DNA of 64,000 nt, taken from IMG/VR virus record IMGVR_UViG_3300032331_003609, positions 124,001 through 188,000 of that record; one strand, 5' to 3'. A program made the translations under genes and the position numbers. Source of the stretch: a virus. Shown one piece after another: positions 34,557 through 51,973 of the stretch. The first letter of the stretch is position 1; each line of letters begins with the position of its first letter. The notes beneath the pieces are model-generated. The model was not told where the DNA came from. It was given only the letters and a program-made list of their open reading frames with translations, and searched no databases.

Positions 34557-35303
34557 GTGGTCAATCGTATTAAAAATTTTAAACAGTGGATTTTAAATGA
34601 GGGTGAATTCTATCAGAATGAGCTTAATACCCTTTTTTGGACCAATTCTCAGTTTGATCCCTCTATAAGAGAAAAGCTACTTCAGATCGCTAATGAATTT
34701 TATCAAACGTTCAAATTAGAAATCCCAATCTCCGATATTCAATTAACTGGATCTTTAGCTAACTATAACTGGACACCTAAGTCAGATCTTGACGTTCACG
34801 TCCTAATAGATTTTTCTAAACTTAATCCAGATATTGCTTTAGTTAAAAAGGGAATAGACGGACAAAGATTTATCTGGAACTTAAGACATAATATAGTTAT
34901 GAGAGGACATGATGTTGAATTATATCTTCAAGACGTAAACGAGCCTCACATAGCTTCTGGTCTATTTTCTCTTTTAAATAACGAATGGATAAGAATCCCT
35001 AAGTATAATCCGCCCCAAATAGATGAAATGGATGTGCAAAAGAAGTTTGAGGGAATAGTAAATGATATAGATCAATTAAATGCTAATCTTGAAAGCGGAA
35101 GTTCAGCTATATCTCCGAGGGAGCTTTATGACCATTCAGAAAAGGTTAAATCTAGAATCATGAAAATGAGAAAAGAGGGTCTTGCAGAGAGGGGGGAATT
35201 CTCTGTAGAAAATTTAGTGTTTAAAAAGCTCAGAAACGAAGGATATATACAGAATCTTATCGACCTAATATCCAGGTCATACGAGAAAATTTATAACGAA
35301 TAA
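34557..35303 (+). CDS. Nucleotidyltransferase-fold protein with capsid-targeting-like N-terminus
   Basis: A 248-residue protein beginning with GTG. The N-terminus MVNRIKNFKQWILNE|GEF resembles T4 capsid-targeting peptides, with a gp21-type cleavage site after E15. The body has a polymerase-beta-type nucleotidyltransferase motif: LTGSLANYNWTPKSDLDVHV at 63-82, with the G-S pair and D77-x-D79 metal ligands, and a likely third acidic residue in the RGHDVELYLQDV strand near 120. The C-terminal 80 residues are helical. A late promoter and the position next to head genes suggest that the enzyme is packaged in the capsid. Its substrate is unknown. Confidence 0.72.
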   Translation: MVNRIKNFKQWILNEGEFYQNELNTLFWTNSQFDPSIREKLLQIANEFYQTFKLEIPISDIQLTGSLANYNWTPKSDLDVHVLIDFSKLNPDIALVKKGIDGQRFIWNLRHNIVMRGHDVELYLQDVNEPHIASGLFSLLNNEWIRIPKYNPPQIDEMDVQKKFEGIVNDIDQLNANLESGSSAISPRELYDHSEKVKSRIMKMRKEGLAERGEFSVENLVFKKLRNEGYIQNLIDLISRSYEKIYNE

Positions 35304-35314
35304 AAACCAAAAAG

Positions 35315-37840
35315 ATGTCAGGAATTTACAAAGGATACAATCCTATTTTCGAATCAATGAAGCAAGAGCTTTTTGAGGAGGAAACTAAAATAGACGTAGA
35401 TGCACTTATTAGAGCTATCTACGACACTTTTGTTAACCTAATAGTTAATGGAACAGACGAGGCAGTTAAAACTCCTGATGGATTTAAAGCATACATGGAA
35501 AAGGCTTTACAAGCCAGCTCTTTAAATGGTATTCAGGCTGAATTTGAAAAAAGAATAGATTTAATGGCTGCTACTGATAAAAGTCAAGCAGAAGCATTAA
35601 ACCAATCTAGATCCTATATTGGACAATTATTCTCATCATTAAAATCTGCAGTAGGTGAAGATTCCAAAGGTCTACAAAAAGCTATAGATAAAATGACATC
35701 TTTAATGGGATCTACAATAACTAGTTTTCAATCAGTTCAGGTTGAACTTCAAAAGAACGAAAGCTTAGTTAGCAGATACTTAATGGAAGATAATGAGCAA
35801 TTAACAGGAGAGGAAGCAGATTCTGAAGATGGATTAGCAGATAAATGGTATACCCAATTATCTAAAAATCTTTTAGACAGCGCAACGTCTTTTAAAGGAG
35901 AAACAGCATCTGCCATGGCTAGCAAAAATTTAGCTGGCAATTCCGAGGTTCAGAATTTTTCTCAATCTTCTCAGCAATATCTGGAGCAAGCAAAGCAATT
36001 AGCAATATCAGGGGGTAGGAGAGGATTATTTCAAACAGGAAAACTCCAAACAGCTTCAGGTCCTATGAAAGCTAAAGATTATAGAGTAAAGGCTCAAAAT
36101 CTTGTCAATGAGATAATCAGACAAAGAGAAGAATTTAGAAAATTAAATTACAAACTATCTAATATTCCTGCACCAACAAATCCAATCGTGGTTTGCCCAA
36201 CAGGTATGGCGTTTGATGTAGCAAAAAATGCTTGCGTATTTGTTACCGTTCCTGTAGTTAATACAGGAGGAGGAGGCGGGGACACTAAACCACCAAGGCC
36301 AAAGCCAACACCAGTTACAACTGGATGTACTTTTCCAGTTGCTATAGGAGCATCTAAATGCTCGGAGGTAGCAGCACTTCAAGGTAAATTGATTAGTATG
36401 GGATCTTGTATGGCTGATATCTTAAATGCAGCAGGGGGAGCAGATGGAAGATATGGTAAAGTAACAGCTAAGTTAGCAAACATCACTTATGCTTATATGA
36501 TGAAGTCAAATTCATTTAATGCAGCAGGAGAATTAACCCAAGAAATGTATAATGCTATAATGGCAGGAGGCCAGGTAATATACCAACAGCCACCAACAGC
36601 AGTGAAAGATTCATTAGACGTTTCTAAAGTTTTAGAAAACAAAACATTTGAAAAAGAACATCAAACAGGGACACCAGTTTTATCATTTGGTGATTTCTCT
36701 AAGATCCTAACAGAAGCTGTCTATTTAACTGAAGATGCAGGTATTCCTAATACATCAAGAAGCATAGCATCTTGTATATGTTCAACATATCAATCTGGAA
36801 ATATAGATCCAAATTGCTTCTCAATTGTCCCAGTACCAGTTCCAAACCCTACAGGAGGAACAGGAGCAACAGGAGGAACAGAGCCAATACCGGGTCAAGC
36901 AGATTGGAAAGGACTTAAATATGTTAATAGTGGATCTTATCCGGTTTCATTCGACGAAAGTCTTTTAAGTTTCTGGACCAAAGAAATAATAATTGATGCT
37001 TTAACATTCTGGGCACCAGGAGGAACATACGCTCTAAAAGCAGGAGCAACGGGTCTTAAATCATTAGGTATCAAGGGAGCCTCTAAAGCTGGAATGACAA
37101 AATTAGCTACTAAATTGGCAGCTAGCGCATCAACTAAAGCAGCTACACTAGGAACTGAAAAAGTAGCTTCTAAATTAGCTAACGTTTCTGCAGGATATTT
37201 TGCTAAATATGGTAGAATTCCTATCGCAAAGAGAACAGCAGCTGGACTTCTTGGAGGAACGGTTGGTGGTGCATTCTTTGACTTCATAGCGGGAAGAGAC
37301 ACTTTTGTTATCACATCAGTAGAAGGATTTGTAGAAAGAAACATGATAATGGGAATAGCTAAGGGTCTGACAAATACACTTGATGGATACTGCAGTGATG
37401 ACGATTGGGCATGCATAACACAGGTTTTAGCTATTACTAAAGGCGGTTGGACAGTGGACGAGGATGATAAAGCAGTATCAATTTGGTCACAGCTTAAGAA
37501 ATTCTACATGGAATCAGAAGGCGAGGAATTAATAGACGATATAAAGAGTGTTAAAGCTAAATTTGGAGATGTTGAAGGATATCCTAATGTTAAATCACTT
37601 TCTCCGCTTGCAAGTGTATCTGATCTTGATTGGGATTTAGCAAAAGCTGAGACTAATAGATTTGTTGATGCTCTTGAAAGAAACGAATCTAAGCTAGCGG
37701 AAAACCTTGCTAAACTTCCTGAAAAGTACGTTCAAGCATTCGTAGAGGGTGCTTATGATGAGATTGATGAAGAAGGAGAAGCAACTTCTGCTGACGGAAA
37801 AGAAGCTCCGGAGGAAAAAGCAATAAACAAACCTCAATAA
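35315..37840 (+). CDS. Large putative internal head protein with PG-binding-like motif
   Basis: An 841-residue protein. The N-terminus GYNPIFE|SMKQELFEEE carries a candidate cleavage site after E13 and matches the start of the 43780 product (IYNPLFE|SLLKK). Residues 25-290 are helical. A Cys- and Pro-rich linker follows (about 295-345). Near 375, ADGRYGKVTAKL resembles peptidoglycan-binding repeats (D-G-x-[F/Y]-G-x-x-T). A second targeting-like stretch, SFGDFSKILTEAVYLTEDAG, lies near residue 460. Residues about 560-680 are Ala/Gly-rich and amphipathic (KAGMTKLATKLAASASTKAA). The tail is acidic. It may be ejected with DNA, but no named family is recognised. Confidence 0.68.
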   Translation: MSGIYKGYNPIFESMKQELFEEETKIDVDALIRAIYDTFVNLIVNGTDEAVKTPDGFKAYMEKALQASSLNGIQAEFEKRIDLMAATDKSQAEALNQSRSYIGQLFSSLKSAVGEDSKGLQKAIDKMTSLMGSTITSFQSVQVELQKNESLVSRYLMEDNEQLTGEEADSEDGLADKWYTQLSKNLLDSATSFKGETASAMASKNLAGNSEVQNFSQSSQQYLEQAKQLAISGGRRGLFQTGKLQTASGPMKAKDYRVKAQNLVNEIIRQREEFRKLNYKLSNIPAPTNPIVVCPTGMAFDVAKNACVFVTVPVVNTGGGGGDTKPPRPKPTPVTTGCTFPVAIGASKCSEVAALQGKLISMGSCMADILNAAGGADGRYGKVTAKLANITYAYMMKSNSFNAAGELTQEMYNAIMAGGQVIYQQPPTAVKDSLDVSKVLENKTFEKEHQTGTPVLSFGDFSKILTEAVYLTEDAGIPNTSRSIASCICSTYQSGNIDPNCFSIVPVPVPNPTGGTGATGGTEPIPGQADWKGLKYVNSGSYPVSFDESLLSFWTKEIIIDALTFWAPGGTYALKAGATGLKSLGIKGASKAGMTKLATKLAASASTKAATLGTEKVASKLANVSAGYFAKYGRIPIAKRTAAGLLGGTVGGAFFDFIAGRDTFVITSVEGFVERNMIMGIAKGLTNTLDGYCSDDDWACITQVLAITKGGWTVDEDDKAVSIWSQLKKFYMESEGEELIDDIKSVKAKFGDVEGYPNVKSLSPLASVSDLDWDLAKAETNRFVDALERNESKLAENLAKLPEKYVQAFVEGAYDEIDEEGEATSADGKEAPEEKAINKPQ

Positions 37841-37844
37841 TAGA

Positions 37845-37853
37845 GATATATAG
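37845..37853 (+). promoter_or_regulatory. Late promoter GATATATAG
   Basis: GATATATAG followed by TAAAATAAATAAAAT, beginning 27 nt before the ATG of the protease-scaffold gene. Confidence 0.72.
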
Positions 37854-37871: not shown

Positions 37872-39953
37872 ATGAGTCTTAACCCTGAATTCGTTTTGGT
37901 CTTGGAAAAATCTTCACATAACCTGAAGTCCGAGAAGAATGGTAACGAATATTATCTTGAAGGTATAGCAGCAGTGTTTGGTAAAGAGAATTCAAACCAA
38001 AGAATCTACGAGGAAAGAGAATATCTTCCCCATTTGCAATATTTAAAAGAAAAGATAGAACAAAAAAGATTAGTAGGTGAATTAGATCACCCTAAGGAAT
38101 TTGATGTGTCTTTAAAGAATATTTCACACCTAGTTGAAGAGCTTGCTTATGATCAAGAGAATAGAACTTTAAGAATTAAAGTTAGACTTTTAGATACACC
38201 AGCAGGTAAAATAGCTAAATCTTTAGTTGATGCTGGTATTCCAGTTTCTATCTCATCAAGAGCAGCAGGCAACGTGATGGAAAACAAAAAAGTACAAATT
38301 AAGAAGATTTTTACCTATGATCTAGTTGCTGATCCTGGATTTGAGAATGCTCAATTAGAAAGAGTTTACGAAAGCTATGGATACAATCTTAACGAAAAGT
38401 CAAAAAATGAATCCATTTTAAATGGTCTTCCTTTGATGAACGAAAGCTTAGGATTAGAAAATGATTCAAATTTTAAGATATATAGAATCAAAGATCAAGA
38501 TAAGATACAAAAGCTTCTAGATAAGGAGCCAAATAAGAGTTTAATCATGGAAAATAATTTCGTTACAGCGGAAGAAATGAATGGATATTCTAAACTAATC
38601 AAAAAAGAAATGGACACTATTAAAGGGTCTATTGAATCATTGAAAGGGATTAAAGAATCTTCCAAAATAACAGAATCATCTTCTCTTGAGGAAAGAGTTG
38701 GTAAGTTAGAAAAGTATGCTGATTATTTAGCAGAAAACCTAGAGGCATCTATTAAGTATGGTGAATACCTAGCTGAAAATTTAGAAGATTCAGTTTCTTA
38801 TTCTAAGTATCTTGCAGAGAACCTAGACAAATCTATTTCTTATGCAAAATATCTTGCTGAGCATTTAGATCACAATATCTCTTATTCTGAGTACATTGCA
38901 GAGAACGTTGACAACAACGTAACAGCAGTTAAAGGTCTAACAGAGAAAGTTGATCAATCTATTGCTTATGCAGAATATGTAGCAGAGAACGTAGACAAGA
39001 ACATTAAGTATAGCGAATACCTTGCTGAAAACTTAGATAAGAACATCTCTTATTCTGAGTATCTTGCTGAGAACGTAGATAAGAACATTTCTTATTCTGA
39101 GTACTTAGCAGAAAACCTAGATAAAGGTTTAGCTTATAGCGAATACTTAGCTGAGAAATTAGATAAGAACATTTCTTATTCTGAGTACTTAGCAGAAAAC
39201 CTAGATAAAGGTTTAGCTTATTCTGATTATCTTGGTGAGAACCTAGATAAGACAGTTCATTACAGTGAGTATATCGCTGAAAAATTAGCTAACAACATCA
39301 GCTATGCAGAATACATCGCTGAGTCTGTAAATGCAGCTTCAGGAACCGCAGAGGTAAAAGAAGCAGTAACAAAAGCAATTTCTGAAAACACAAGAACTTC
39401 AGGATATGCAGGAGATTACACAGAGATCTCTTCTAAAATTGACAATTTATTGAACACTGTCGGTAAACAAAAGACAGAAGAAATAGCAGAAAATAAGAAC
39501 TATCCTTTCTTAAAGCTTATGGGCGAACAAGGACAAAGAGAATTTTTATCACTGCACGAAGGCCAAAAACAAAAGGTCGCCAAATCCTTAAACGAAAACA
39601 ATTACTCATCCGAAAAAGAGGTAGTTGAAATTATGGGTAAAACTCTGAATGAGCAAAATCAATCCGGAGAAAAATTCCTAGATTTAATGCCAGAAAAATA
39701 CAAAACTACATGGGAGAATATGAATGAGTCTCAAAAGGCCTCTATATTAGCTCAAAGTAAGTTTCATAAATTGGATACTCCTTACCAAATCCAGAATTTC
39801 TGGGCTACAAGAGGTATTGCAGTTACCAAGGCAAATATCGAAAGAATAGACGAATCCCAAGAACAAATAACCGCAGCTCCTCAGCCAAAGGGAATATCTA
39901 GAGAATATTTAGATAATCTTTCTGAAGCTTTAGCTGTTAGGTTTAAAAAATAA
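37872..39953 (+). CDS. 21: Prohead protease (gp21-like) fused to repeat-containing scaffold
   Basis: A 693-residue protein. Residues about 25-160 are a T4 gp21/S78-type prohead serine protease: VGELDHPKEFDVS (H73), LLDTPAGKIAKSLVDAGIPV, SISSRAAGNV (catalytic serine 128 or 129) and TYDLVADP (D150). T4 gp21 is only 212 residues. Here, after a linker with possible self-cleavage sites (NLNE|K, LMNE|S), residues 281-490 hold fifteen 14-residue units of the type YSEYLAENLDKNIS, then a helical C-terminus. T4 encodes the core scaffold gp22 separately just after gp21; no separate gp22 gene is seen here, so this part probably is the scaffold. The capsid protein gene follows 15 nt downstream. Confidence 0.85.
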   Translation: MSLNPEFVLVLEKSSHNLKSEKNGNEYYLEGIAAVFGKENSNQRIYEEREYLPHLQYLKEKIEQKRLVGELDHPKEFDVSLKNISHLVEELAYDQENRTLRIKVRLLDTPAGKIAKSLVDAGIPVSISSRAAGNVMENKKVQIKKIFTYDLVADPGFENAQLERVYESYGYNLNEKSKNESILNGLPLMNESLGLENDSNFKIYRIKDQDKIQKLLDKEPNKSLIMENNFVTAEEMNGYSKLIKKEMDTIKGSIESLKGIKESSKITESSSLEERVGKLEKYADYLAENLEASIKYGEYLAENLEDSVSYSKYLAENLDKSISYAKYLAEHLDHNISYSEYIAENVDNNVTAVKGLTEKVDQSIAYAEYVAENVDKNIKYSEYLAENLDKNISYSEYLAENVDKNISYSEYLAENLDKGLAYSEYLAEKLDKNISYSEYLAENLDKGLAYSDYLGENLDKTVHYSEYIAEKLANNISYAEYIAESVNAASGTAEVKEAVTKAISENTRTSGYAGDYTEISSKIDNLLNTVGKQKTEEIAENKNYPFLKLMGEQGQREFLSLHEGQKQKVAKSLNENNYSSEKEVVEIMGKTLNEQNQSGEKFLDLMPEKYKTTWENMNESQKASILAQSKFHKLDTPYQIQNFWATRGIAVTKANIERIDESQEQITAAPQPKGISREYLDNLSEALAVRFKK
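38712..39341 (+). repeat. 15 x 42-bp coding repeat in scaffold region
   Basis: Fifteen tandem 42-bp units encode the 14-residue consensus [S/K]Y[S/A]EYLAEN[L/V]DK[N/S]I. Unit 6 (TAVKGLTEKVDQSI) is degenerate; units 8-13 are most alike, some nearly identical in DNA. There are no insertions between units. Confidence 0.85.
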
Positions 39954-39968: not shown

Positions 39969-41726
39969 ATGCAACTTATCAATCAACATGAAATCTATGA
40001 AACCTGGGCACCAATATTGGAAAGCAAAACAGGTATTCAAGAGAGAGGTAAATTAGACTGGTTAACTAAATACTGTCATTACCACTCATTAAACGAATCT
40101 GCCGGAGCGTATAACTCTTTAGGCGTATTAAACGGTATGGGCCAAGTATCTCCTGCTTCTAACGTAGGTTTATCTGGCGGTCCTGCTGGCTTTTATGCAG
40201 GCGGATCTTATTCTGGAACTGGTCTTGGTTCTGGCGATAAATTCCCTTCTCTTTTACCTTTAGCTATTCAAGTAGCTGCTAAAACAGTAGGTTTTGATAT
40301 CGTTCCAGTTATCCCAATGAGCGGTCCTACAGGCGTATTATCATACTTAGACTATGTTTACGCAGGTGGTAAATTATCTGGTACTGACTCTGTATCTCCA
40401 TACACAGCAAACACTCCAGATTTAATTAAAGTTCCAACAACAACAGCTTCTCCAGTTACTGGTTTAGCAGTAGGAACCACTTACCTTTTAGGTGCTTCTG
40501 GTCTTTCTTCAACAAAAGACTTAGACTCTGCAGGTGTAGGTGCTTTAGTAGCTGGTAAATTCGTCGGTAGTTCAAGAATCGATGGTTTCCCAATTTTCCA
40601 AGTGGTAGCATTAACTGTAGGTTTCTCTATTGCTGACGCAATCGGGGCAGACGCAGTTATTTACTCTGGTTCATATAATACAGGTACAAAGGTTTATACA
40701 ATCTCTGCAACAGTAGGATATGCAAACGGTGCTGCTCAATTAGTTAAAACTTTAGAAGATCACGTACAAGGATTTACTGGTTCTGGCGTTGCTAACGACG
40801 GTACATGGTCTGGTCCTTATGTAGACGGTACTAAAGCTTACGATCCAATGTCAAGAGGAACTGCAGAAGGCACTTACTTCAAGTCATTAGGTCTTTCTAC
40901 ATTCACTAAGTTTGTAGAGGCTGGTACATTCCAAGTTGCTGCTTCTGTTACAACTGAGCAAATCCAAGATTTGAACAAGCAATTCGGTATCGACGTAGTT
41001 TCTATGATCGAGAACGCACTTGTTAACGAGGTTTCTCAAGCGATCAACAAGCACATCTTATCTAGAGCATTTGCTTTAGGTTGGTCTAACCACTATGAAT
41101 TTGCAAACACCGAATTAGGTGGAGCATCTTCTGCTTCTCTAAACATCAATTTAAATATTGGTTCTGGTGGAGCTTCAACCGCATCTTTCATCGGTAAGGA
41201 CAATGGATCTTTAACAATCTATACTCCTGGCGATATTGCTACAGGCGGATACGAGAACCAATCAACTGTACAAAGAAGATTATTCTCAAGAATCTTGGCT
41301 GCTGCTAACGTAGTAGCAAACAGAGGAAGAAGAGGACCTGCTAACTTTATTGTTACTAACGCTCAGGTAGCTTCTGCTTTACAAGATATTTCACAATTCA
41401 CATTTGCTCCTTTTACAAACACGTTAACTCAAAATAACGGTACTTTATATCCAGTTGGTTCAATCGCTGGTATGACCGTTTATGTTGATCAAAACATGTC
41501 TTTTGGCGATACGAGAGTATTAGTTGGAAGAAAAGGTGCTGATGACGAACCAGGTATGAAATTTATGCCTTACATGATGGCTGAGTCAATTCAGACTATC
41601 TCTGAAGGTACAATGTCACCTAAAATTGCAGTTAAGTCTAGATACTCTTTAGTAGAGGCTGGACATCATCCTCAAACAATGTACTTATGCTTCAAAGCTA
41701 TAGTACCTGCAACTGGTATCGCTTAG
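39969..41726 (+). CDS. 23: Major capsid protein, gp23-like
   Basis: A 585-residue T4 gp23-family capsid protein with HK97 fold. Conserved segments are FPSLLPLAIQVAAKTVGFDI, VPMSGPTG-like VIPMSGPTGVLSYLDYVYAG near 110, GIDVVSMIENALVNEVSQAI near 340 and RRGPANFIVTNAQVASALQD near 455. The N-terminus has the shape of a removable prosegment (ETWAPILESKTGIQERGKLD) ending HSLNE|SAGA, a predicted protease site after E43; T4 gp23 is cut after E65. A likely surface insertion lies at 150-290. A strong terminator follows. Codon use is GCT/TCT/AAC-rich compared with neighbours, as expected for a very highly expressed gene. Confidence 0.92.
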   Translation: MQLINQHEIYETWAPILESKTGIQERGKLDWLTKYCHYHSLNESAGAYNSLGVLNGMGQVSPASNVGLSGGPAGFYAGGSYSGTGLGSGDKFPSLLPLAIQVAAKTVGFDIVPVIPMSGPTGVLSYLDYVYAGGKLSGTDSVSPYTANTPDLIKVPTTTASPVTGLAVGTTYLLGASGLSSTKDLDSAGVGALVAGKFVGSSRIDGFPIFQVVALTVGFSIADAIGADAVIYSGSYNTGTKVYTISATVGYANGAAQLVKTLEDHVQGFTGSGVANDGTWSGPYVDGTKAYDPMSRGTAEGTYFKSLGLSTFTKFVEAGTFQVAASVTTEQIQDLNKQFGIDVVSMIENALVNEVSQAINKHILSRAFALGWSNHYEFANTELGGASSASLNINLNIGSGGASTASFIGKDNGSLTIYTPGDIATGGYENQSTVQRRLFSRILAAANVVANRGRRGPANFIVTNAQVASALQDISQFTFAPFTNTLTQNNGTLYPVGSIAGMTVYVDQNMSFGDTRVLVGRKGADDEPGMKFMPYMMAESIQTISEGTMSPKIAVKSRYSLVEAGHHPQTMYLCFKAIVPATGIA

Positions 41727-41828: not shown

Positions 41829-42941
41829 ATGAAGCTTATTGAAAATTTTAAATCATATAGTGATTGCAAAGAAGCATTAATAGAATCGTATGGTGATATT
41901 GATATTGCAAAAACCAAATTAATTAAAAAGGGATATTCATCGGATGATTTAGACGAAAGTTTAAATGCAATCAAAGAATCATTAGGCGATAAGATTATTA
42001 ACTTTTTTTCTAAAAATCTAGGGGGTGGTATTTCTAAAATAGACAGAATACTAAGAGATATAAAAGAAGAAGAAATTAGATTTATCAGGGACGAGCATGA
42101 AGCAGAATCTAAATTCTATAAATTAAGCACAGCACTAGGACAATTAAAAAGGGATAAAGCAGACAAGTCGGAAATGGATCAATATGTTATTAAATTGAAT
42201 AAGATTCAAAAATTAATAAGAGATTTAGTTTCTTCACACAGCTCTATTATGGATAGCCTAGAAAAACAAATAGATGTTCTAACTAATAAGAAGAATAGAA
42301 GAAGCGAGTACTATAACTTAAAAAGAGCAGAGGATGCTGTAGAGACTAAAAAACTAAGAGCAGAATTTAAAAAGAAGCTTATTAGTCAAGAAGATGATTC
42401 TGAGTACTTAAAAGATATTCAAAAGATTCTTGGAAATCCCAAAGATGCAGAGAAAGATTTAGAAAAAGCTAAGGAGAACCTAGCTAAAGAAAAAGGTGAA
42501 ATAGGAGCAAGCGACGAGGTTTCTAGAATGTCACCAGATAAGATAGAAAATATCTTGAGTGAATATCATAAAGAAATTATGGCTTCGCTCAAAGACGTTA
42601 AAGACTATACAGAAAAATCATTAGACAGGATTCAAGAGCTTTCTGATAATAAGAAAATGAATCAAGGAGCTTATAACAGTATGAAAAATACATTTGAATC
42701 TAAGATAAGTAAGATTTCTAAGTATGTTGAAGAAGCTAAGAGTAAAATATCACAAATAGGAACTTCCGATGAAGAGATAGGAGAAGATTCAAATAAAGCA
42801 ATAACTTATCTTTTGAACCTGGAAAAAGCAGTTACCAATATAAAGTATTATACTTGGCCAGCTGATGATCTTTCTAAAGAGAAAAAAGAGATTCAATCTG
42901 CTTTAGAAGTAGTAGAAGACGAAATACAAAAAGCAGCTTAA
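41829..42941 (+). CDS. Putative internal head protein, coiled coil
   Basis: A 370-residue, highly charged helical protein. The N-terminus MKLIENFKSYSDCKEALIE|S resembles a capsid-targeting peptide with a candidate site after E19; a second site is possible at AIKE|SLGD near residue 50. After the second site the sequence (DKIINFFSKNLGGGISKIDR) parallels that after the cleavage site in the next gene. The rest is coiled coil (KLIRDLVSSHSSIMDSLEKQ; AEKDLEKAKENLAKEKGEIG). It is unrelated to named families. It overlaps the next ATG by one base. The late promoter and its place after the capsid gene support a head-interior role. Confidence 0.68.
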   Translation: MKLIENFKSYSDCKEALIESYGDIDIAKTKLIKKGYSSDDLDESLNAIKESLGDKIINFFSKNLGGGISKIDRILRDIKEEEIRFIRDEHEAESKFYKLSTALGQLKRDKADKSEMDQYVIKLNKIQKLIRDLVSSHSSIMDSLEKQIDVLTNKKNRRSEYYNLKRAEDAVETKKLRAEFKKKLISQEDDSEYLKDIQKILGNPKDAEKDLEKAKENLAKEKGEIGASDEVSRMSPDKIENILSEYHKEIMASLKDVKDYTEKSLDRIQELSDNKKMNQGAYNSMKNTFESKISKISKYVEEAKSKISQIGTSDEEIGEDSNKAITYLLNLEKAVTNIKYYTWPADDLSKEKKEIQSALEVVEDEIQKAA

Positions 42942-43779: not shown

Positions 43780-46143
43780 ATGAAAAATAACATCTATAAC
43801 CCACTTTTTGAAAGCTTGCTTAAAAAAGTAAACGATTACGAAAATCCACAAGGCATCTCAGAACAAGATGGTGCGGTGAAAGGAACTATTTTTAGCGACT
43901 ATATGAAAGCTATGTCTCAATTAGGTTCTAAATTGGTTGCACAATATGCCAATGCTATTCAGACCTATCCTAAGACTGCTGTTAAGACTGAATACATGAA
44001 AACCTTTACTGATAAATTAAAGGCCATTGAAAGCTCTATAGATATTACAAAAACACCATCTATCCAATTGGATGCTTTATTTAACAATGTTAAAACTGAG
44101 GCAACAGCATTTTTTGGATTGGGTGCTAAAGAAGATAAAAATCTTGTTAAATACCTAGAGCCATGGAGAGATGCATTTAGAACAGGATTTCAACTTTATA
44201 CCCAAGCATTTAAAAGCTTAATGGAATATGTTAAAAAACAAGAAGAGAGTGGCCAAGCTAAAATTAGCGAAACTGAAAAGGGTATGATGAAAGCAGGTGT
44301 TAGTAAATTTATTGCATCACTTACTGCATCTTTTGAAAAAAACAAGACAATCACAGATACTAAATGGGGAGAACCCGTTGTTGGTGAGTCTTTAGTTAGA
44401 GATAACTCAGTTATAGAAAAACTAATTCAAAACAAAATATGCGTTGATTTTAACACCTTTAATACAGTAGTTAATGAAGCTAAAGAGGATAGAATTGCAA
44501 GAAGAGCAGCAAAATCAGCAAGGGTTAATATAGAAGTATTACAGGCAAACATTTCAAATGTTCTAAACCAAATAGGAGGGAGACTTGGAGATCCGGCTAA
44601 AGCTAATTTTAAATCTCTAGCAATGGCTCCTGAATTTAACAAGATTGCAAACACTCTAGTTTCTATCCAAGACGAATTGTCAATTGATAGGTCAGAATTA
44701 AAGAATGTTCAATTTGATGATTTAGATAAACAAATTGCCAATCTAACGGATCTATTCAAGACTAAAAAAGATTCTTATGATAAGACATATTCTGAAGAAG
44801 AAAAAACACTAAGAAGTTCTAAAACATTAGAAATTGCAACACCAGAGGTTGCCAAGTTTATTGCAGACGGAGATGCTCAATTCGATGCATTATCAGATCT
44901 GGCTCAAAACGGAGCTAATCTTTTCTCTGCAGATATTGAAAAAGCAAAACAAGATAAATCACAAGCAGATAAAATAAAGGGAGAATCTCAACCAAAGAAT
45001 CCAGGCAAGAAAGACGGAGAGGTACAAAAAGGTCAAGACGGAGCAGATTGGAAATGGGACGCTAAAGCAAAGGTTTGGAATAAAGTAGAAGTTGCTGATC
45101 CTGTTTCTACCTCAAATATTAAAATTGCATCACCGATTAAAAAAGGTGCTAAAGGTGATCAGGTTAAAGCAGTTCAGCAATTGATCATGGATAAAATGGG
45201 TACAAAATTGAAAGATGTACCTCAGTATAAGAAATTTGCTAAATACGGAGCAGATGGTATATTCGGAGGATCCACAGCATCTTTAGTTCCTGCGATGAAA
45301 GGGGCGTTAGGGTTAAAAGACACTTCTTCTGATATTACACAGGAATTGGTTGATAAATTATCAGCAGTTATTAAAGAATCATTTGTTTTCGAACAAGATT
45401 TCGATATGGACGTTTTTAATAAAATCATAGGAAGCGGAGGGGGAGGAGACACCAAACCAGCAAAGGGAAGTTCGGGTGCAGGATCACCTATAAATTCTGC
45501 AGCTTTTAAATGTATTAAAGCTAAGGAAACTACAGAATTTGCAATGAAGGGAGGAAAAGCAGTGGTAACAAGGGCAACTACTGGAAATATTCACGAATTT
45601 AAAGCAGACGGAAGTTATAGAATTTACATAAAAAGTGAGGATAAATGGAAAAGGGGTGTTTGGAGTTGTGCGGGTAATTCTTATCAAGCAACAATAGAAG
45701 GAGGCGAAGTCTATCTTGGTGATTATCAGAATTTTAAAAGTGAAATTGATAAATCGCAAAAAGTAGCAGCAGAAGCAGCAGCTAAAAAAGCAGCAGAACA
45801 GATTGCTAGTGCTAGAGTAATTTGTCAGATTCTCCTTCAAGCAATGGCAGGTGCTAGTGAAGATGAGGGAACAGTTTATAAAACATTCCAGGATAAAATC
45901 ACAACCAAGGAGATGTTTAATACTGTTGAGGCCCAGTGGAATTCGCTTTGGCCAAGTAAAGCTGATATGAACGGCACGATGATATCAGCTAAATCAAAAA
46001 GTTGGGAAGAACTTAAGAAAGCGTGTGCATTTACTGGAACAAAGAATGGATTTAGCTTTAGAAACATATTTACACAGTTTTTTAGTTCTTCTGAAATAGC
46101 TAGATTGAATCAATATTTACCAGCAGGGGTTAAAGCAATTTAA
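43780..46143 (+). CDS. Large putative internal head protein with PG-binding-like domain
   Basis: A 787-residue protein. The N-terminus MKNNIYNPLFE|SLLKKVN shares the YNP[L/I]FE|S signature with the 35315 product. Residues 20-400 are helical (SAKKAARVNIE-type Ala/Lys-rich), with VVNE|AKED near 230. A linker carries PKNPGKKDGEVQKGQDGADW. Residues about 452-540 resemble a peptidoglycan-binding domain 1: KKGAKGDQVKAVQQLIMDKM, then YGADGIFGGSTASLV. A beta domain follows near 590 (KADGSYRIYIKSEDKWKRGV) before a helical end. Peptidoglycan-binding modules in ejected proteins can aid wall penetration. It is the last gene of the late unit. Confidence 0.7.
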   Translation: MKNNIYNPLFESLLKKVNDYENPQGISEQDGAVKGTIFSDYMKAMSQLGSKLVAQYANAIQTYPKTAVKTEYMKTFTDKLKAIESSIDITKTPSIQLDALFNNVKTEATAFFGLGAKEDKNLVKYLEPWRDAFRTGFQLYTQAFKSLMEYVKKQEESGQAKISETEKGMMKAGVSKFIASLTASFEKNKTITDTKWGEPVVGESLVRDNSVIEKLIQNKICVDFNTFNTVVNEAKEDRIARRAAKSARVNIEVLQANISNVLNQIGGRLGDPAKANFKSLAMAPEFNKIANTLVSIQDELSIDRSELKNVQFDDLDKQIANLTDLFKTKKDSYDKTYSEEEKTLRSSKTLEIATPEVAKFIADGDAQFDALSDLAQNGANLFSADIEKAKQDKSQADKIKGESQPKNPGKKDGEVQKGQDGADWKWDAKAKVWNKVEVADPVSTSNIKIASPIKKGAKGDQVKAVQQLIMDKMGTKLKDVPQYKKFAKYGADGIFGGSTASLVPAMKGALGLKDTSSDITQELVDKLSAVIKESFVFEQDFDMDVFNKIIGSGGGGDTKPAKGSSGAGSPINSAAFKCIKAKETTEFAMKGGKAVVTRATTGNIHEFKADGSYRIYIKSEDKWKRGVWSCAGNSYQATIEGGEVYLGDYQNFKSEIDKSQKVAAEAAAKKAAEQIASARVICQILLQAMAGASEDEGTVYKTFQDKITTKEMFNTVEAQWNSLWPSKADMNGTMISAKSKSWEELKKACAFTGTKNGFSFRNIFTQFFSSSEIARLNQYLPAGVKAI

Positions 46144-46743: not shown

Positions 46744-48177
46744 ATGTGTGGAATACTAATTGCTCATAATCCCTCCGAGGAAAGAATTAAGTCAATATCG
46801 CACAGGGGTATCGAATATTCCACACACTCAGATGCATCGGGATTAACCCTATGCCATCACAGATTGCCTATCCAAACAGCAATAGGTGACGGTTGGATTC
46901 AACCGGTCGAGATATCGAAAGACAAGTACCTTCTATTCAATGGCGAAATTTTTAATTATCCCACGGAGCTATATGATTCAGATACTGCGTATCTAGCTAG
47001 TCTTTTTTCTACCTGCCTAGACTTTTCATCACTTGAGATGTTTAGTGCTCTCTACGAGCCCCATATTAAGAGCTGGGATGGTTTCTGGGCTATTTGTCTG
47101 GTTGATATGAAGACAAAGAACGTTATTTGTTTTACAGACCCTCTAGGTAAGAAGTGCCTATACTATAATGATCTTGGAGAAATCTGCTCTGAAATGAAAG
47201 GACTTATTAATAGTGCTTCTTTCTTAGATAGATCCTTTATGGGCGGTGTAAGAAAATGGGGGTATGTTCCTAATGAATCTACCCCATTTGAAAACATCCA
47301 GAAGATCCGACCAAACTACTTTTATCAATGGAATTTTGCTGCTCCAGACTTCAAGAAGCTATATGGTCCCTATTTCTCATTTAAACCCCCCAAATTTGAG
47401 TTTAATTCTGAGGATGAGATGTTAGATTGGGTTTGGAACAAAGTTGAAGCAGCGACAAAGAATAGACTGTTAAGCTTGGACTATCCTATATCCATCCTGC
47501 TTTCAGGAGGTCTGGATTCATCTATCATTGGTGGGCTTCTTCTTAAGCTAGGTGCGGATGTTAGTTGGTATACCATAAACAACGGACCGGACAATGATTA
47601 TGTCAGAGAATGCGAGAATTATTGGGGTATTAAAGTAAACCAATTGGAATATACAATGAACGAAGATAGTATTAATCTGGATGAATTGTATTTTAAGTGG
47701 AATGAATCTCCTATAGATTTAGGCAGCGTGGTACCACAGTACCTGCTATTTGATGCGATTAAAAAAGGAACAGACACTAGAATAGTCCTATCAGGGGACG
47801 GAGCAGATGAAATGTTTGGAGGATATAGAAGGATAGATGAGTACGACTCACAAGGATCTGATGTTTTCCATGAATTAACATATTACCATTTACCAAGACT
47901 TGATAAAATGAGCATGGCACACACATTAGAGCTTAGAAATCCTTTTCTGAATTTAGAGCTTCTTCAAATGGCACTAAATCTTCCGATGGATTTAAGGAAA
48001 CATAAGACCATTCTTAAGAAAGCATTCAAAGGATTGGTTCCAGATTCTGTTATAGAAAGAAAAAAGCATCCATTAAAGAATGAAAGAATAGTGAAAGATC
48101 CTATGGAATATAGAATAGAAGCTATTGAAAGCTTTAAAAAGGGATACAGCGATTTTTTAGAAAGAGGAGAATATTAA
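46744..48177 (+). CDS. asnB: Asparagine synthetase-like glutamine amidotransferase
   Basis: A 477-residue class II amidotransferase of the AsnB family. Cys2 (MCGI) is the glutaminase nucleophile. NGEIFNYPTEL near 75 binds glutamine. SGGLDSS at 254-260 is the PP-loop that activates the acceptor carboxylate with ATP. SGDGADEMFGGYRR near 350 and RLDKMSMAHTLELRNPFL near 393 are typical synthase motifs. It is shorter than bacterial AsnB (about 554), mainly in the N-terminal domain. It may make asparagine or amidate a glycan or peptide, as relatives do in surface polysaccharide loci. It converges with a minus-strand gene, overlapping by 4 nt. Confidence 0.85.
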   Translation: MCGILIAHNPSEERIKSISHRGIEYSTHSDASGLTLCHHRLPIQTAIGDGWIQPVEISKDKYLLFNGEIFNYPTELYDSDTAYLASLFSTCLDFSSLEMFSALYEPHIKSWDGFWAICLVDMKTKNVICFTDPLGKKCLYYNDLGEICSEMKGLINSASFLDRSFMGGVRKWGYVPNESTPFENIQKIRPNYFYQWNFAAPDFKKLYGPYFSFKPPKFEFNSEDEMLDWVWNKVEAATKNRLLSLDYPISILLSGGLDSSIIGGLLLKLGADVSWYTINNGPDNDYVRECENYWGIKVNQLEYTMNEDSINLDELYFKWNESPIDLGSVVPQYLLFDAIKKGTDTRIVLSGDGADEMFGGYRRIDEYDSQGSDVFHELTYYHLPRLDKMSMAHTLELRNPFLNLELLQMALNLPMDLRKHKTILKKAFKGLVPDSVIERKKHPLKNERIVKDPMEYRIEAIESFKKGYSDFLERGEY

Positions 48178-49661
48178 TAAAGCTCAATTCCTGCTAGAGA
48201 ATCACCTTTTGCATTAAGTGGTGAATAATCTTCTGGTTCATCCGTCAAAAGAAACGTCTTACTTGCATCGACAACTAAACCAGCTATTCCCATAAATCCC
48301 CTGTTAATTAGTATCGGAGTACTTTTGTTAGTTCTATCAACAATAGAAAATTTAACCTTCTTGTAAACCATTTCCCCGAATTCAATATCTAAAAGAATAA
48401 CTGGCCTTTTATCAGTTTGATCCCCAACTTCTGCATGGGAATATTCCATTATTCTGTTACTAAAGGATTTACCCCCAACTGTCCAATTTAAAAATCCATC
48501 AACCTCTTCTGAAAAATCTGCATGAAGAGAACACGCAATAGATCCGTTGCCAGTATCTAATTTACCTATAAATTTGCCAACCCCCTTGATATCAAAGCTC
48601 TCTCTAAATCCCACCATTTTTCGAGGATAATTCCAGTTCTTTTTATCAAGTATAAAATCTAAGATAATTCCTGTTACGTCAAGACCCGTTGCTTTTTCTA
48701 TGCCGTCAGTTCCTGGTGATGCGTTTACTTCTAAAACATATGGTATACCAGTATTTTTTCCAATAATAATATCAACACCACACCACGAGCATTCAGTTGC
48801 TTTAGCAGCTCCTATTGCTATTTTTTCTATCTCTTTAGATATTTCTACTGCCTCTGCTACCCCACCTAAAGACACGTTTGTTCTAAAGTCATTCTCTATT
48901 CTGTGTCTTTTCATAGAGGCTATAATTGTATAATCATCCCCGTCGCCTGTAGAATTTCTAGATCCAACTACGTGTATTCTTAAATCAAAGTCAGCTTCTA
49001 TTTTTTCTTGGACTATTAATTCAGTTTCTGGCGAAAGCTTCCATATTGTTTGTAAAGTTGAGAAAAGAGACGTTTTAGAATCTATCTGAAATACACCTAT
49101 TCCTTTGGTGCCGCTTAATGTTTTTACTACAATAGGGTATTTTCCCCCGATTTTACTCATAGCATTTTCTATATCATCCTCTGATGATATTAAAGCAGTT
49201 TTTGGTGTCGGTATTCCTTTTTCTTGGAGTTTTTGAACAGTGTCTAACTTATCTTCACAAAGAAGTACAGATCTTGGTGAATTCACTGATACAAATCCAA
49301 GAGATTCAAGTTTTTCAAAAAATTTAACAGCTGCTGTTGAGTTTATTGATGATCTTCTAGCAAGTATTGCTGTATTTTTAATATCAATCTCATACTTGTT
49401 GTTGCTTCCTTTATTTCTAATAAAGAAGCTTCCTGTTTCACTTTTTTCGATTTCCCCCTGCGATGTGTTAATTATGATGCATTTAAATCCTAAAGAAGTG
49501 GATTTCTCCATCATTTTTTTAACAGTTGGAGCAAGATAGTTTTTTCTTGATTCTAATTTGGTTGTAAGAATCACAAGGGAAATAGGCTTTTTTGAGCCTA
49601 TCTTTAGATTCTCAGCTCCCTGAAAAACAAAATCATCTTCTTTGGTCAATAAATTATCCAT
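48174..49661 (-). CDS. RimK-type ATP-grasp ligase fused to retropepsin-like domain
   Basis: A 495-residue two-domain protein on the minus strand. Residues about 95-340 are an ATP-grasp ligase of the RimK group: LCEDKLDTVQKLQEKGIPTP, VVKTLSGTKGIGVFQ (K180), CGVDIIIG (D297) and VLEVNASPGTDG (E311, N313). Residues about 349-475 resemble the RimB / 'ATP-dependent zinc protease' retropepsin-like family: MVGFRESFDIKGVGKFIGKL followed by DTGNGS (D369-T-G), then FSIVDRTNKSTPILINRGFM. RimK-type enzymes add amino acids to protein C-termini. The pairing suggests a ligase and hydrolase of the same modification. A late promoter lies upstream. Confidence 0.82.
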   Translation of the reverse strand: MDNLLTKEDDFVFQGAENLKIGSKKPISLVILTTKLESRKNYLAPTVKKMMEKSTSLGFKCIIINTSQGEIEKSETGSFFIRNKGSNNKYEIDIKNTAILARRSSINSTAAVKFFEKLESLGFVSVNSPRSVLLCEDKLDTVQKLQEKGIPTPKTALISSEDDIENAMSKIGGKYPIVVKTLSGTKGIGVFQIDSKTSLFSTLQTIWKLSPETELIVQEKIEADFDLRIHVVGSRNSTGDGDDYTIIASMKRHRIENDFRTNVSLGGVAEAVEISKEIEKIAIGAAKATECSWCGVDIIIGKNTGIPYVLEVNASPGTDGIEKATGLDVTGIILDFILDKKNWNYPRKMVGFRESFDIKGVGKFIGKLDTGNGSIACSLHADFSEEVDGFLNWTVGGKSFSNRIMEYSHAEVGDQTDKRPVILLDIEFGEMVYKKVKFSIVDRTNKSTPILINRGFMGIAGLVVDASKTFLLTDEPEDYSPLNAKGDSLAGIELY

Positions 49662-49687: not shown

Positions 49688-49698
49688 TTGGCAAATAA

Positions 49699-49726
49699 AA
49701 AAGGAGATCTTTGAGGATCTCCTTTT
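49699..49726 (-). terminator. Terminator of the acidic-protein gene
   Basis: AAAAGGAGATC / GATCTCCTTTT with loop TTTGAG. On the minus strand it ends in TTTTTTATTT and lies 24 nt past the stop at 49750. It may work in both directions. Confidence 0.85.
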
Positions 49727-49749
49727 GTTTATTTTGTTTTAATTTATTG

Positions 49750-50331
49750 TTAATTGAAAAATCTATTAAAAGCAGGGTTTAAAATTTCTTCAGATTCTTC
49801 TTCTTCATGATCCATTTCCTCGCCTTCTTCCATTTCTTCGTGGGTCATTTCTTCTCCTTCCTCCATTTCTTCATCTTCTTCCATTTCTTCCTCATTGACA
49901 TCCGCTTCATCTTCTAGTTCTTCCTCCTCATTATACTCATCTAGGTCAATTTCTTCCTCTTCACCATCCTCTTCATCCTCATCTTCTTCGTTCATATTTT
50001 CTTCCATATCTTCCTCTTCTTCCATACTTTCTTCTTCTTCCTCTTCTTCCATACTTTCTTCTTCTTCCTCTTCTTCTTCCTCGTTATCTGTCATATCATC
50101 AGAAGTGGTATCATCGTCCATATCAAATGAGGAATCTACTCCATCAGTTTCTTCATCTTCTTCTTCTGTTTCATCGTCAGTAGGAATTGAATCTGCACCA
50201 CCATCGGTTTCAGTTTCTTCTTGATCTGCTGTATCTGCAGTGTCCATATCCATTTCTGTATTGTCTTGACCAAGTGTTCCTTCAGTGTATTGTTTAGAAA
50301 ACTCCTCAAAACTTAATATCTTTTTTTCCAT
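49750..50331 (-). CDS. Extremely acidic putative prohead-core protein
   Basis: A 193-residue protein. After a targeting-like N-terminus, MEKKILSFEEFSKQYTE|GTL (candidate site after E17), nearly the whole protein is Glu and Asp, with long EEEEEEEE runs and MEEGEEM repeats. It ends with a short uncharged motif, ILNPAFNRFFN. T4 encodes a small, highly acidic prohead core protein (gp67), which is gp21-processed; this may be its functional analogue, though no sequence homology can be claimed from composition. Other options are a DNA-mimic or a counter-ion protein. It has its own late promoter and terminator. The antisense serine-rich frame is an artefact. Confidence 0.72.
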   Translation of the reverse strand: MEKKILSFEEFSKQYTEGTLGQDNTEMDMDTADTADQEETETDGGADSIPTDDETEEEDEETDGVDSSFDMDDDTTSDDMTDNEEEEEEEEESMEEEEEEESMEEEEDMEENMNEEDEDEEDGEEEEIDLDEYNEEEELEDEADVNEEEMEEDEEMEEGEEMTHEEMEEGEEMDHEEEESEEILNPAFNRFFN

Positions 50332-50348
50332 TTTTGAATTATTTATAT

Positions 50349-50358
50349 CTATATATCT
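50349..50358 (-). promoter_or_regulatory. Late promoter AGATATATAG (minus strand)
   Basis: On the minus strand AGATATATAGATATAAATAA lies just upstream of the ATG at 50331, combining both forms of the late motif. Confidence 0.7.
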
Positions 50359-50376
50359 TTTTGCGTGATCGCATTC

Positions 50377-50610: not shown

Positions 50611-50624
50611 CTTTTCTTTTTTTA

Positions 50625-51323
50625 TTATCCTAGTCCTAAAAGACTTAATATTCCAGTATTAGTACTACCTGTTCCGTCGGTCGATTTGGCTGATGTTTTA
50701 GCTGCAGTAGCTAAATCTTTTTCTGAGAATTTTCCGCCTCCAAATATACTTTTGAATGATGTTCCTTCCCCACAAACTATTCCCTCTAATTTAGTTTCTA
50801 GCATAGTTGCAAAAGCGGTAGAGTTTATATAGGTAGTTAATGCCTCTCTTGTTGAAGCTACAAAAGTACCTCCTAAACCAGATTCAAAATTAATGTTTAT
50901 TCCTAATCCTCTAGAAAGTATAAGTGAGATAGCTTTTTCTTCTATTGTTTCTGTTAATCCTAATGTTATTGCTTTTGTCCAATATTTACAAGATCCTGCC
51001 CCGAAATAACTACCAATGTGCATAAATGAGATATTTTCCACTATATTCTTTGCAAATTCACTCATAAACCCACCGTCGTTTGGTAATCCGAATTTGTCCA
51101 AAAGCCATCCAGCAGCATAGTTTTTTAGTCTATCTTCAAATCCACCCATTAATTTACCGCCTAGACCGCTAATTAAATCCCAAAGGCCTTCATTTATTTG
51201 ATCTACTGATTCACCTTTGTGCAGCATATCATTATAATGAGCTTCTAAACCTTCCACTATTCTGAAATATTCTTCGTCTGTTACATTAACCTTTGTAAAT
51301 TCTGAATATTTGATGACTTTCAT
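50625..51323 (-). CDS. Putative internal head protein with INE|G site
   Basis: A 232-residue protein. ATG 51323 is chosen because a late promoter lies 25 nt upstream and because MKVIKYSEFTKVN matches the other targeting-like N-termini; a longer frame reaching 51401 would read through the promoter. The predicted prosegment ends at VDQINE|GLWD (E45), close in length to that of the capsid protein (43). The mature N-terminus GLWDLISGLGGKLMGG is glycine-rich and amphipathic. The rest is helical with hydrophobic patches and a Gly/Ser/Thr tail ending ILSLLGLG. No family is recognised. Confidence 0.7.
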   Translation of the reverse strand: MKVIKYSEFTKVNVTDEEYFRIVEGLEAHYNDMLHKGESVDQINEGLWDLISGLGGKLMGGFEDRLKNYAAGWLLDKFGLPNDGGFMSEFAKNIVENISFMHIGSYFGAGSCKYWTKAITLGLTETIEEKAISLILSRGLGININFESGLGGTFVASTREALTTYINSTAFATMLETKLEGIVCGEGTSFKSIFGGGKFSEKDLATAAKTSAKSTDGTGSTNTGILSLLGLG

Positions 51324-51340
51324 TTCTACTTTATTTTTAT

Positions 51341-51348
51341 TATATATC
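51341..51348 (-). promoter_or_regulatory. Late promoter GATATATA (minus strand)
   Basis: GATATATAATAAAAATAAAG read on the minus strand, 25 nt before the ATG at 51323. It forms a divergent pair with the plus-strand copy at 51372. Confidence 0.7.
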
Positions 51349-51371
51349 TCTTCTATAATAATAAAACCAAA

Positions 51372-51380
51372 GATATATAA
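51372..51380 (+). promoter_or_regulatory. Late promoter GATATATAA (plus strand)
   Basis: GATATATAA begins 29 nt before the TTG start at 51401. With the minus-strand copy at 51341 it makes a divergent late promoter within about 80 nt. Confidence 0.68.
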
Positions 51381-51400
51381 CCATATAATCAAGTCACCCA

Positions 51401-51973
51401 TTGAAACACCTTCTAAGTTATAGAGATTTATTTGAAAGTACCTCTGCTGGATCCCAGGATAGGGGATCTTCAGATGTGCCTCCGTTCAAGTTTGCTATAA
51501 ACTTCGACCCTAGACTAGGATACACTAAAAACGATTTTGTGCAGGATTTGACTGAGATCTATTTGGGATATCCATTAAAGGACCGTAGAGATCTTATGGA
51601 TGCTGTTTTTAAAAGCGCTGGTGTTTTTAAAATATCAGACATTCAGGATCTTCCGCAGGACAGGGTAGATAAATTAATCAAAAGCGTAGAAGAGTATATG
51701 GAAAGTAAATCCGAGTATAAATTAGAAATACTTCCAGACGGGTTTATTCTTTGCTTTGAGGGGCTTAAACACCGAAAAAGAACTTGTGATGTTTATTACT
51801 CCCCGACGGAAAGAAAAGTAAAAATATCATATACCGACGCCTATCCAGAAAATGAAGAGATAATAATTGGGATAGATGGATTTTCTCCTATATCAGTAGG
51901 AGTTGATAATAACGATTTTATGGCGACGGTTGAAAAGTGCGATGATTATGCTAAAAAGTCTAATCCCTTATAG
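51401..51973 (+). CDS. Putative head-interior protein with LFE|S site
   Basis: A 190-residue protein starting with TTG (no ATG before residue 60). The N-terminus MKHLLSYRDLFE|STSAG matches the targeting-like set, with a candidate cleavage after E12, followed by a disordered stretch (SAGSQDRGSSDVPP). The body is an alpha/beta domain (VQDLTEIYLGYPLKDRRDLM; YKLEILPDGFILCFEGLKHR; VYYSPTERKVKISYTDAYPE). No family is recognised. It has its own late promoter and converges with the next gene, their ends overlapping by 6 nt. Confidence 0.65.
   Translation: MKHLLSYRDLFESTSAGSQDRGSSDVPPFKFAINFDPRLGYTKNDFVQDLTEIYLGYPLKDRRDLMDAVFKSAGVFKISDIQDLPQDRVDKLIKSVEEYMESKSEYKLEILPDGFILCFEGLKHRKRTCDVYYSPTERKVKISYTDAYPENEEIIIGIDGFSPISVGVDNNDFMATVEKCDDYAKKSNPL

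Follow-up and report, generated by a model that had tools for sequence, protein, structure and literature searches.

A probable N-terminal address label with an adjoining predicted gp21-type site on diverse proteins of a jumbo phage

Introduction

Injected phage proteins act ahead of phage gene expression and include anti-restriction factors such as Ip1-3 of T4; since no homology links their bodies, few have been recognised. Ten or more internal proteins of T-even phages have only an N-terminal leader in common, according to extracts of PMC12373910 (citing Repoila 1994) and PMC5694885. The locus studied here lies in a 64,000-nucleotide stretch (the window) of a 245-kb jumbo phage genome and raises the question of whether the presumed late proteins encoded around its prohead protease carry an address of this kind. 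The original prediction had listed nine such proteins, and all nine N-termini and motifs are found in the sequence where it had placed them. Proteins are named below by the position of their start.

Results

To define the label we used the consensus M-x(2-5)-[LIV]-x-x-[FYW]-x-x-[FWYL] followed by [LI]xE, of which MKKYSDFILDDSLNEG is an example from the studied lineage, and compared the jumbo phage genome with those of three relatives (four in total). A profile trained on the head-module orthologues of the relatives found 13 N-termini in the genome at a score of at least 12, which none of 164 internal-Met controls reached and for which shuffles predict 0.6. Over the four genomes, 99 ORFs in 68 families bear the label, at 14-35 per genome and well above controls; a core-only profile also recovers it far above controls, and unsupervised clustering of N-termini groups it across non-homologous bodies. 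These results support the proposed modular address on unrelated bodies, which is present on tens of ORFs in each of the related genomes compared, but the segment 34557-51973 is not the limit of the system, as label bearers are scattered over the whole genome. The named cultured relatives found were MA9V-2, PAU and PTm1.

Six of the nine listed proteins (34557, 41829, 42941, 50331, 51323 and 51401) are supported by the profile (Table 1), while the other three are set aside below. Five of them are orthologues of training rows, which leaves 51401 as the sole example entirely out of sample.

Table 1. Label-bearing and neighbouring features of the window (arrow, predicted cut)
Position	Strand	Feature	Gene or remark	Profile score
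17430..19679	+	749-aa protein	listed originally; label unsupported	
34557..34601	+	label and predicted site MVNRIKNFKQWILNE↓G, P1 = E15	nucleotidyltransferase-like protein, gene 34557-35303	29.2
35315..37840	+	841-aa protein adjoining the protease, second-type N-terminus MSGIYKGYNPIFES	membership unproven	
37872..39953	+	prohead protease, its long fused C-terminal part scaffold-like and containing LNE/MNE sites		
39969..41726	+	major capsid protein	matches the PHROG major head protein at 1.6e-34	
41829..41978	+	label and predicted propeptide, conserved P1 E50 (IKE↓S)	370-aa protein, gene 41829-42941	14.5
42941..42985	+	label and predicted site MKKYSDFILDDSLNE↓G, P1 = E15	275-aa all-helical protein, gene 42941-43768	22.9
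43780..46143	+	787-aa protein, second-type N-terminus MKNNIYNPLFES	membership unproven	4.6 (under threshold)
48174..49661	-	ATP-grasp (RimK-like) protein, no clear label here	orthologues labelled in three relatives	
50281..50331	-	label and predicted site MEKKILSFEEFSKQYTE↓G, P1 = E17	highly acidic 193-aa protein, gene 49750-50331	16.6
51189..51323	-	label MKVIKYSEF and predicted site QINE↓G, P1 = E45	232-aa protein, gene 50625-51323, start internal to a longer ORF	10.9
51401..51436	+	label of MKHLxxYxLFES form and predicted site DLFE↓S, P1 = E12	190-aa protein, 51401-51973	11.3

In 42941 the predicted P1 residue is very strongly conserved: in 26 homologues, mostly 17-24% identical to it, this glutamate is the sole invariant column, and among 42 homologues it is the only column at 100%. 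In a structure model of the same protein, residues 1-29 have a pLDDT below 50 and are followed by an ordered helical body, for which a fold search gave no match at E<=0.001. For 34557 the predicted P1 is kept in 79% of 43 orthologues; an alignment of the body in 29 orthologues shows a conserved GSLANYxx..SDLDVH motif and a variable label, and Pfam nucleotidyltransferase matches are weak and under the gathering cut-off. The predicted P1 of 51323 occurs in 79% of 14 orthologues. The label form of 51401 is also present in the relative G004 (MRHIKSYNLYES and others), and no orthologue of 51401 was found in L019-L098. In 41829 the cut had been placed at E19 (ALIE↓S), probably wrongly, since in 19 orthologues it is E50 that is invariant (IKE↓S here, LNE↓G or VNE↓G in relatives) while E19 is kept in 79%; E19 (LIE↓S) may be a second cleavage site.

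By itself, an [LI]xE[GS] motif is weak evidence, as it occurs within residues 5-50 of 12% of the ORFs of the genome and in 7.8% of random internal windows. Of the 99 bearers, which were picked without using the site, 82 have [LIVFYM]xE within 17 residues, compared with 30% in the control. P1' is G, S or A at 54 of these 82 sites against a background of 19%, a 3.4-fold enrichment (nominal p=6e-20, with orthologues non-independent), and [LIVM]NE[SAG] is enriched 4.06-fold at residues 6-45, where control motifs give 0.6-1.5-fold. The predicted propeptides are 12-50 residues long and end in LNE or [LI]xE. P1' is loose in some families, the nucleotidyltransferase orthologues showing G, D, K, R, Q and S after the glutamate, which suggests that some labels may escape cutting or that the specificity of the protease is broader.

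The encoded prohead protease is confirmed: 37872 matches Pfam Peptidase_S77 (PF03420) at 7.6e-9 and the PHROG head maturation protease (phrog_207) at 1.9e-35, and lies beside the capsid and scaffold. In 66 orthologues of this protease-scaffold the C-terminal part has 11.4 [LIVM]NE per 1000 residues, about ten times the background of 1.16, and in 6 of 8 genomes the protease-scaffold or a scaffold protein has the most, or tied most, [LIVM]NE[SAG] sites. The predicted capsid cleavage site HSLNE↓S at E43 is conserved, HSLNES being present in 74 of 74 orthologues; E18 (PILE↓S), a second candidate site, is likewise invariant. The site beside the label has the same sequence as these capsid and scaffold sites.

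Three listed proteins were not counted as label bearers. The N-termini of 35315 and 43780 share a different form, Y-x-NP-[LIV]-FES, whose Glu/Ser context is not maintained in orthologues: those of 35315 read NPIYES, NPVFES and NFIYEQ, those of 43780 NPLFNQLLEKA and NPTFDKLLERA. Homologues of 17430 are without the label and start MDFINQVKxLK..[LI]CES, although [LI]xE↓S persists near the same place.

Several bearers are enzymes. In the adenylate kinase and the CCA-adding enzyme the label is an N-terminal extension of about 20 residues on an otherwise ordinary enzyme, and RimK-like and MoxR/VWA proteins carry it as well. The protein at 48174..49661 is 43.7% identical to labelled proteins of G001, G003 and G004, its G001 orthologue having a RimK domain at 4.9e-35.

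Nearly all listed genes had been described as having a late promoter or following one. For the T4 consensus this did not hold up: the T4-type TATAAATA is not enriched, being upstream of 1 of the 99 label genes and of 25 of 1,255 others, and TAnnTTTG promoters also show no enrichment upstream of label genes.

To ask what becomes of labelled proteins we turned to published virion proteomes. For the cyanophage S-CREM2, the virion proteome includes all six ORFs that carry a T4-type label, as against 22 of the remaining 187 non-structural ORFs (p=5.7e-6, under a label rule written after five of the labelled proteins had been seen). The test needed annotated starts and the T4-type rule; with automatic start calls the Bacteroidetes-phage profile did not transfer to S-CREM2 (p=0.09-0.54), and a loose regular expression gave p=1. 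The labelled S-CREM2 virion proteins include a SAM hydrolase, an APH-like kinase and a cytidylyltransferase. In S-SCSM1 the NMNAT, a reported virion protein, begins MKSFLQFLKEAA, and of two clear labels one was detected in the virion, the undetected one belonging to a 106-aa protein. As described in extracts of PMC10665884 and PMC9602691, virions of these phages hold SAM hydrolase, APH-like kinase, cytidylyltransferase/NMNAT and Cas9-like nuclease, and in those extracts the authors do not link the enzymes to a targeting leader. We find that the virion enzymes bear T4-type labels, MKxFxxFLxE or FASFMAEA, nearer to the form of T4 than to that of the studied lineage.

Two proteins of Sphingomonas phage PAU, gp142 and gp154, are deposited as 'internal capsid protein' and share the leader MK[ST][LI]xxLYExKLNEA; 18 PAU ORFs, gp142 included, cluster by the shared leader. 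The PAU form is LYE..LNE, whereas that of the studied lineage is FxxF..NE. Pectobacterium phage CBB was discarded as a virion mass-spectrometry test, being without expansion of the studied label; there the same unsupervised method grouped 11 proteins by a different shared N-terminus, MLPFxRxxEYGN, and the mass-spectrometry list contains 9 of these, so that CBB serves as a control of the method.

Discussion

A modular address with a gp21-type site beside an encoded S77-type protease is well supported, by statistics, by comparative data and by the virion proteomes published for T4-like cyanophages. We read it, with a probability of roughly 80%, as a capsid-targeting and prohead-protease system of the T4 type that has expanded greatly and is aimed at diverse enzymes, for which prohead entry, cleavage and injection are inferred here. 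The short leader, with its aromatic-x-x-aromatic core, would bind the assembling prohead core and so trap the attached protein inside the prohead; the scaffold-fused S77 protease would then cut after the glutamate of the adjacent [LI]-[N/x]-E↓[S/A/G], as in capsid and scaffold, and the mature protein would stay in the head with the DNA and probably be delivered into the host. The system resembles T4 capsid targeting (Ip1-3 and Alt, cut by gp21) in having a short leader (10-20 aa) on unrelated bodies, followed by an [LI]xE site for an S77 prohead protease. It differs in the FxxFxNE form, in having 14-35 bearers per genome spread genome-wide, many of them complete enzymes, and in the fusion of protease to scaffold. 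Giant phages such as phiKZ and SPN3US also have many inner head proteins with N-terminal propeptides and a related protease (gp245/gp175; PMC5694885), but those propeptides mostly exceed 100 residues and carry AxE/SxE motifs, unlike the short shared leader with LNE found here; long propeptides of that type were not encountered among our predictions.

Points against the T4-type reading are the loose P1' of some families, the undetected 106-aa S-SCSM1 protein and the lack of T4-type late-promoter enrichment; in addition, adenylate kinase, the CCA enzyme and MoxR/VWA proteins have no obvious reason to be packaged. Together with RimK-like proteins they would be useful during infection, and the label might instead send them to an intracellular phage structure (replication factory, membrane or assembly site), the LxE being incidental or regulatory; our literature search found no virion proteome of the studied lineage, which leaves room for this idea, and no papers on Tenacibaculum phage virion proteomes. 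We consider such a destination improbable: the site next to the label matches those of capsid and scaffold in sequence, the same module encodes the protease, and virions of S-CREM2 and S-SCSM1 contain labelled enzymes, which is shown in these related T4-like cyanophages only.

The label could also be a docking peptide for head assembly that binds the scaffold, with only a minority of labelled proteins cleaved or retained in the mature virion. The P1' residues beyond small ones in several families and the missing 106-aa S-SCSM1 protein would fit, but the very strong conservation of the P1 glutamate in some families and the overall P1' enrichment make this rather unlikely. That the shared N-terminus arose from translation-initiation bias or a recent swap of 5' gene ends, with no selection on the peptide, is already largely refuted. 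The point in its favour, a codon match at label residues of 0.54 where 0.465 is expected, is so slight an excess that it indicates conservation at the protein level; codons are mostly unshared, the motif persists in orthologues that mostly share 17-24% identity, and several residues separate the site from the initiation region.

Returning to the T4-type reading, we lean slightly towards a broader form of it, in which a whole injected enzyme kit (adenylate kinase, CCA-adding enzyme, nucleotidyltransferase, ATP-grasp ligases, MoxR/VWA pairs and wall hydrolases) would be carried in the head under a cleavable address. The address would take lineage-specific forms (FxxFxNE here, LYExxLNE in PAU, FxxFINE in MA9V-2, FxxFLxE in cyanophages and T4), and N-termini could then reveal directly which effectors most T4-like phages inject. 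With a readable address, the proteins that T4-like and jumbo phages package, and probably inject, become predictable from sequence, and the unexplained virion enzymes of cyanophages could be tied to one mechanism. The address nominates tens of candidate effectors per genome, and packaging studies in laboratory phages can draw on its natural, lineage-matched leaders.

Head module and neighbouring genes

The window corresponds to bases 124001-188000 of a full virus record of 244,850 bases, and the order of its head-module genes recurs in the relatives' loci that were examined (80 in all, ten of them listed gene by gene). By capsid protein, the named relatives include Lak phages, Tenacibaculum phages PTm1/pT24, Sphingomonas phage PAU, Flavobacterium phage MaF61 and Chryseobacterium phages MA9V-1/2. 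Judged by eye, a run of ~14-residue repeats (YSEYLAENLDKNIS...) lies in the scaffold-like portion of the protease fusion. Also by eye, two adjacent paralogous proteins (KIGSFGMxYxDxVVKNSQAxG) resemble T4 gp20-type portals; if so, such a side-by-side pair would be unusual.

Positions in the window of the head module and other genes discussed
Feature	Position	Remark
Portal-like protein, 530 aa	21351-22943	paralogue of next gene
Portal-like protein, 577 aa	22947-24680	paralogue of preceding gene
Nucleotidyltransferase-like protein	34557	first gene of head module
Large protein	35315	head module, after 34557
Prohead protease fused to scaffold-like part	37872-39953	head module, after 35315
Major capsid protein	39969	head module, after protease-scaffold fusion
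Head-module gene	41829	after capsid gene 39969
Head-module gene	42941	after 41829
Head-module gene	43780	after 42941
Metabolic genes, then minus-strand genes near 50-51 kb		downstream of 43780
ATP-grasp protein	48174-49661	unlabelled

A common N-terminal label

The label is an N-terminus of the form M-x(2-5)-[LIV]-x-x-[FYW]-x-x-[FWYL], followed by a predicted [LI]xE cleavage site. We trained a position-specific profile only on relatives' orthologues of head-module proteins and scored it on all ORFs of this genome. At a score of at least 12, 13 N-termini were recovered, against 0/164 internal-methionine controls, and shuffling the N-termini predicts 0.6; at a score of at least 10 there were 18, against one such control and 2.8 expected from shuffling, and 13 of the 18 have no orthologue among the training rows. 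Nine late genes had originally been predicted to carry capsid-targeting-like N-termini with gp21-type sites, and six of them pass this profile. The other three are not supported as label bearers: 35315 and 43780 share a different N-terminus, whose cleavable form is not kept by orthologues, and homologues of 17430 have another N-terminal start. For 41829 the label holds, but the invariant Glu is E50 and not the proposed E19. Since [LI]xE[GS] by itself is common (12% of N-termini versus 7.8% of internal windows), the signal is the core plus the site, not the site alone.

In a model-free comparison, where N-terminus similarity among proteins with non-homologous bodies was set against internal controls with no trained profile, similar pairs were in strong excess: 8 versus 0 in this genome, 20 versus 3, 37 versus 2 and 61 versus 6 in three relatives, 74 versus 5 in PAU and 13 versus 1 in MA9V-2. 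P-loop-like starts occur among the few pairs of this genome, for which the trained profile is therefore the preferable test. With a core-only profile we identified 14 label bearers in this genome and 19, 31 and 35 in the related phage genomes G001, G003 and G004, with control matches of 1/186, 1/195, 2/197 and 5/262, respectively, so that some false positives are expected; together these label bearers form 68 families. The label is genome-wide, and more numerous in relatives.

PAU has its own form, MKTLxxLYExxLNEA, on 18 clustered ORFs, one of which, gp142, is annotated 'internal capsid protein'; gp154 shares this annotation and leader but lies outside the cluster. Across PAU gp132-gp154 (L108), ORFs with the leader MKTLxxLYExxLNE are packed around the protease, scaffold and capsid genes, two being annotated internal capsid proteins. 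The MA9V-2 form, MKxFxxFINEx, is near that of T4. Pectobacterium phage CBB (KU574722; L099-L106) has a different common N-terminus, MLPFxRxxEYGN, on 11 proteins, 9/11 of which are listed as virion proteins by the published MS analysis; this N-terminus probably serves as a tag for tail or whisker attachment.

The predicted cleavage site

Site statistics were obtained on 99 label bearers picked without reference to the site. An [LIVFYM]xE motif lies at most 17 residues away in 82/99, versus 30% in the internal control. At the predicted sites, the residue before the Glu (P2) is N in 46, and 54 have G, S or A just after the cut (P1'), versus 19% expected (nominal p=6e-20, inflated by cross-genome orthologues). 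When the label is disregarded, [LIVM]NE[SAG] still shows 4.06-fold enrichment in residues 6-45 (control motifs 0.6-1.5), and in 6/8 genomes the body richest in it, or tied, belongs to the protease-scaffold or scaffold protein. The C-terminal part of the protease-scaffold protein (66 orthologues) contains 11.4 [LIVM]NE per 1000 residues, the rate for other bodies being 1.16, and 74/74 capsid orthologues keep HSLNES unchanged. For 42941, the predicted P1 Glu is the only invariant column among 26 homologues, most of them 17-24% identical to it, and the only column at 100% in a 42-sequence set; the predicted structure has a low-confidence leader (residues 1-29), then an ordered helical body.

Modularity and cargo

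The label is an extension preceding complete domains. In a relative's labelled adenylate kinase, residue 21 aligns to residue 4 of PDB 3cm0 and the match to the Pfam profile begins at residue 26; the domain of a labelled CCA-adding/poly(A) polymerase-like enzyme begins at residue 37. Close homologues of the kinase on five other contigs are also labelled, and diverged homologues of the CCA enzyme (36-39% identical) have label-like starts. The CCA enzyme, MoxR ATPase and VWA protein have unlabelled homologues in CBB, and the ATP-grasp protein of the window is unlabelled while its relatives are labelled. At identical label residues, codon identity is 0.54 versus 0.465 expected; conservation is therefore at the peptide, not the DNA. 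Further domains on labelled cargo are RimK ATP-grasp, GDPD, cell-wall hydrolase, peptidoglycan-binding, MoxR AAA, DUF2201 and Fib_succ. A MoxR-type AAA+ ATPase and a DUF2201/VWA protein, encoded on the minus strand at L013:4140-7254 (genome 99140-102254), are both labelled; the MoxR-like gp56 of cyanophage S-CREM2 has no label and is absent from the S-CREM2 virion list.

Virion proteomes of cyanophages

Our literature search found no virion proteome for this phage's own lineage; that of the T4-like S-CREM2 is published with coordinates (PMC10665884). T4-type labels are present there on the non-structural virion proteins SAM hydrolase (MKDFDSFLEE), APH-like kinase (MKRFDAFLTEE), cytidylyltransferase (MKNFSSFLTEA), gp13 (MKDLHSFLTEQ), gp15 (MNFSEFNES) and gp136 (MQTFSMFFSED). 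When a T4-internal-protein-type rule, written after five of the labelled proteins were known, is applied to annotated starts, 6/6 labelled ORFs are virion members versus 22/187 other non-structural ORFs (Fisher p=5.7e-6, the rule being post hoc for those five); earlier, looser label tests with automatic start calls gave no significance. The Cas9-like nuclease of the S-CREM2 virion (gp12, L195:7704-10313) has a T4-type label, LRFASFMAEA, ~16 residues past its annotated start. In cyanophage S-SCSM1, looked at after this test, NMNAT is a virion protein (PMC9602691) with the N-terminus MKSFLQFLKEAAES; a second clear label, on a 106-aa protein, is not among the proteins reported in the virion.

Proposed mechanism

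It is already known that T-even internal proteins have only a leader in common. A search of open-access journal articles found none that describes the label in this lineage, how widely it occurs, the number of ordinary enzymes that bear it, or a connection with cyanophage virion enzymes. This lineage has the leader, the site and the protease, and shows conservation and modularity. The steps proposed here rest on T4 precedent (PMC5694885, PMC12373910), and packaging would follow by analogy with other T4-like phages, the only ones in which it has been shown for labelled proteins. The leader would dock cargo onto the prohead core, and we infer that in this phage, too, the prohead protease would cleave after the Glu in maturation and the mature cargo would remain with the DNA, then be injected.
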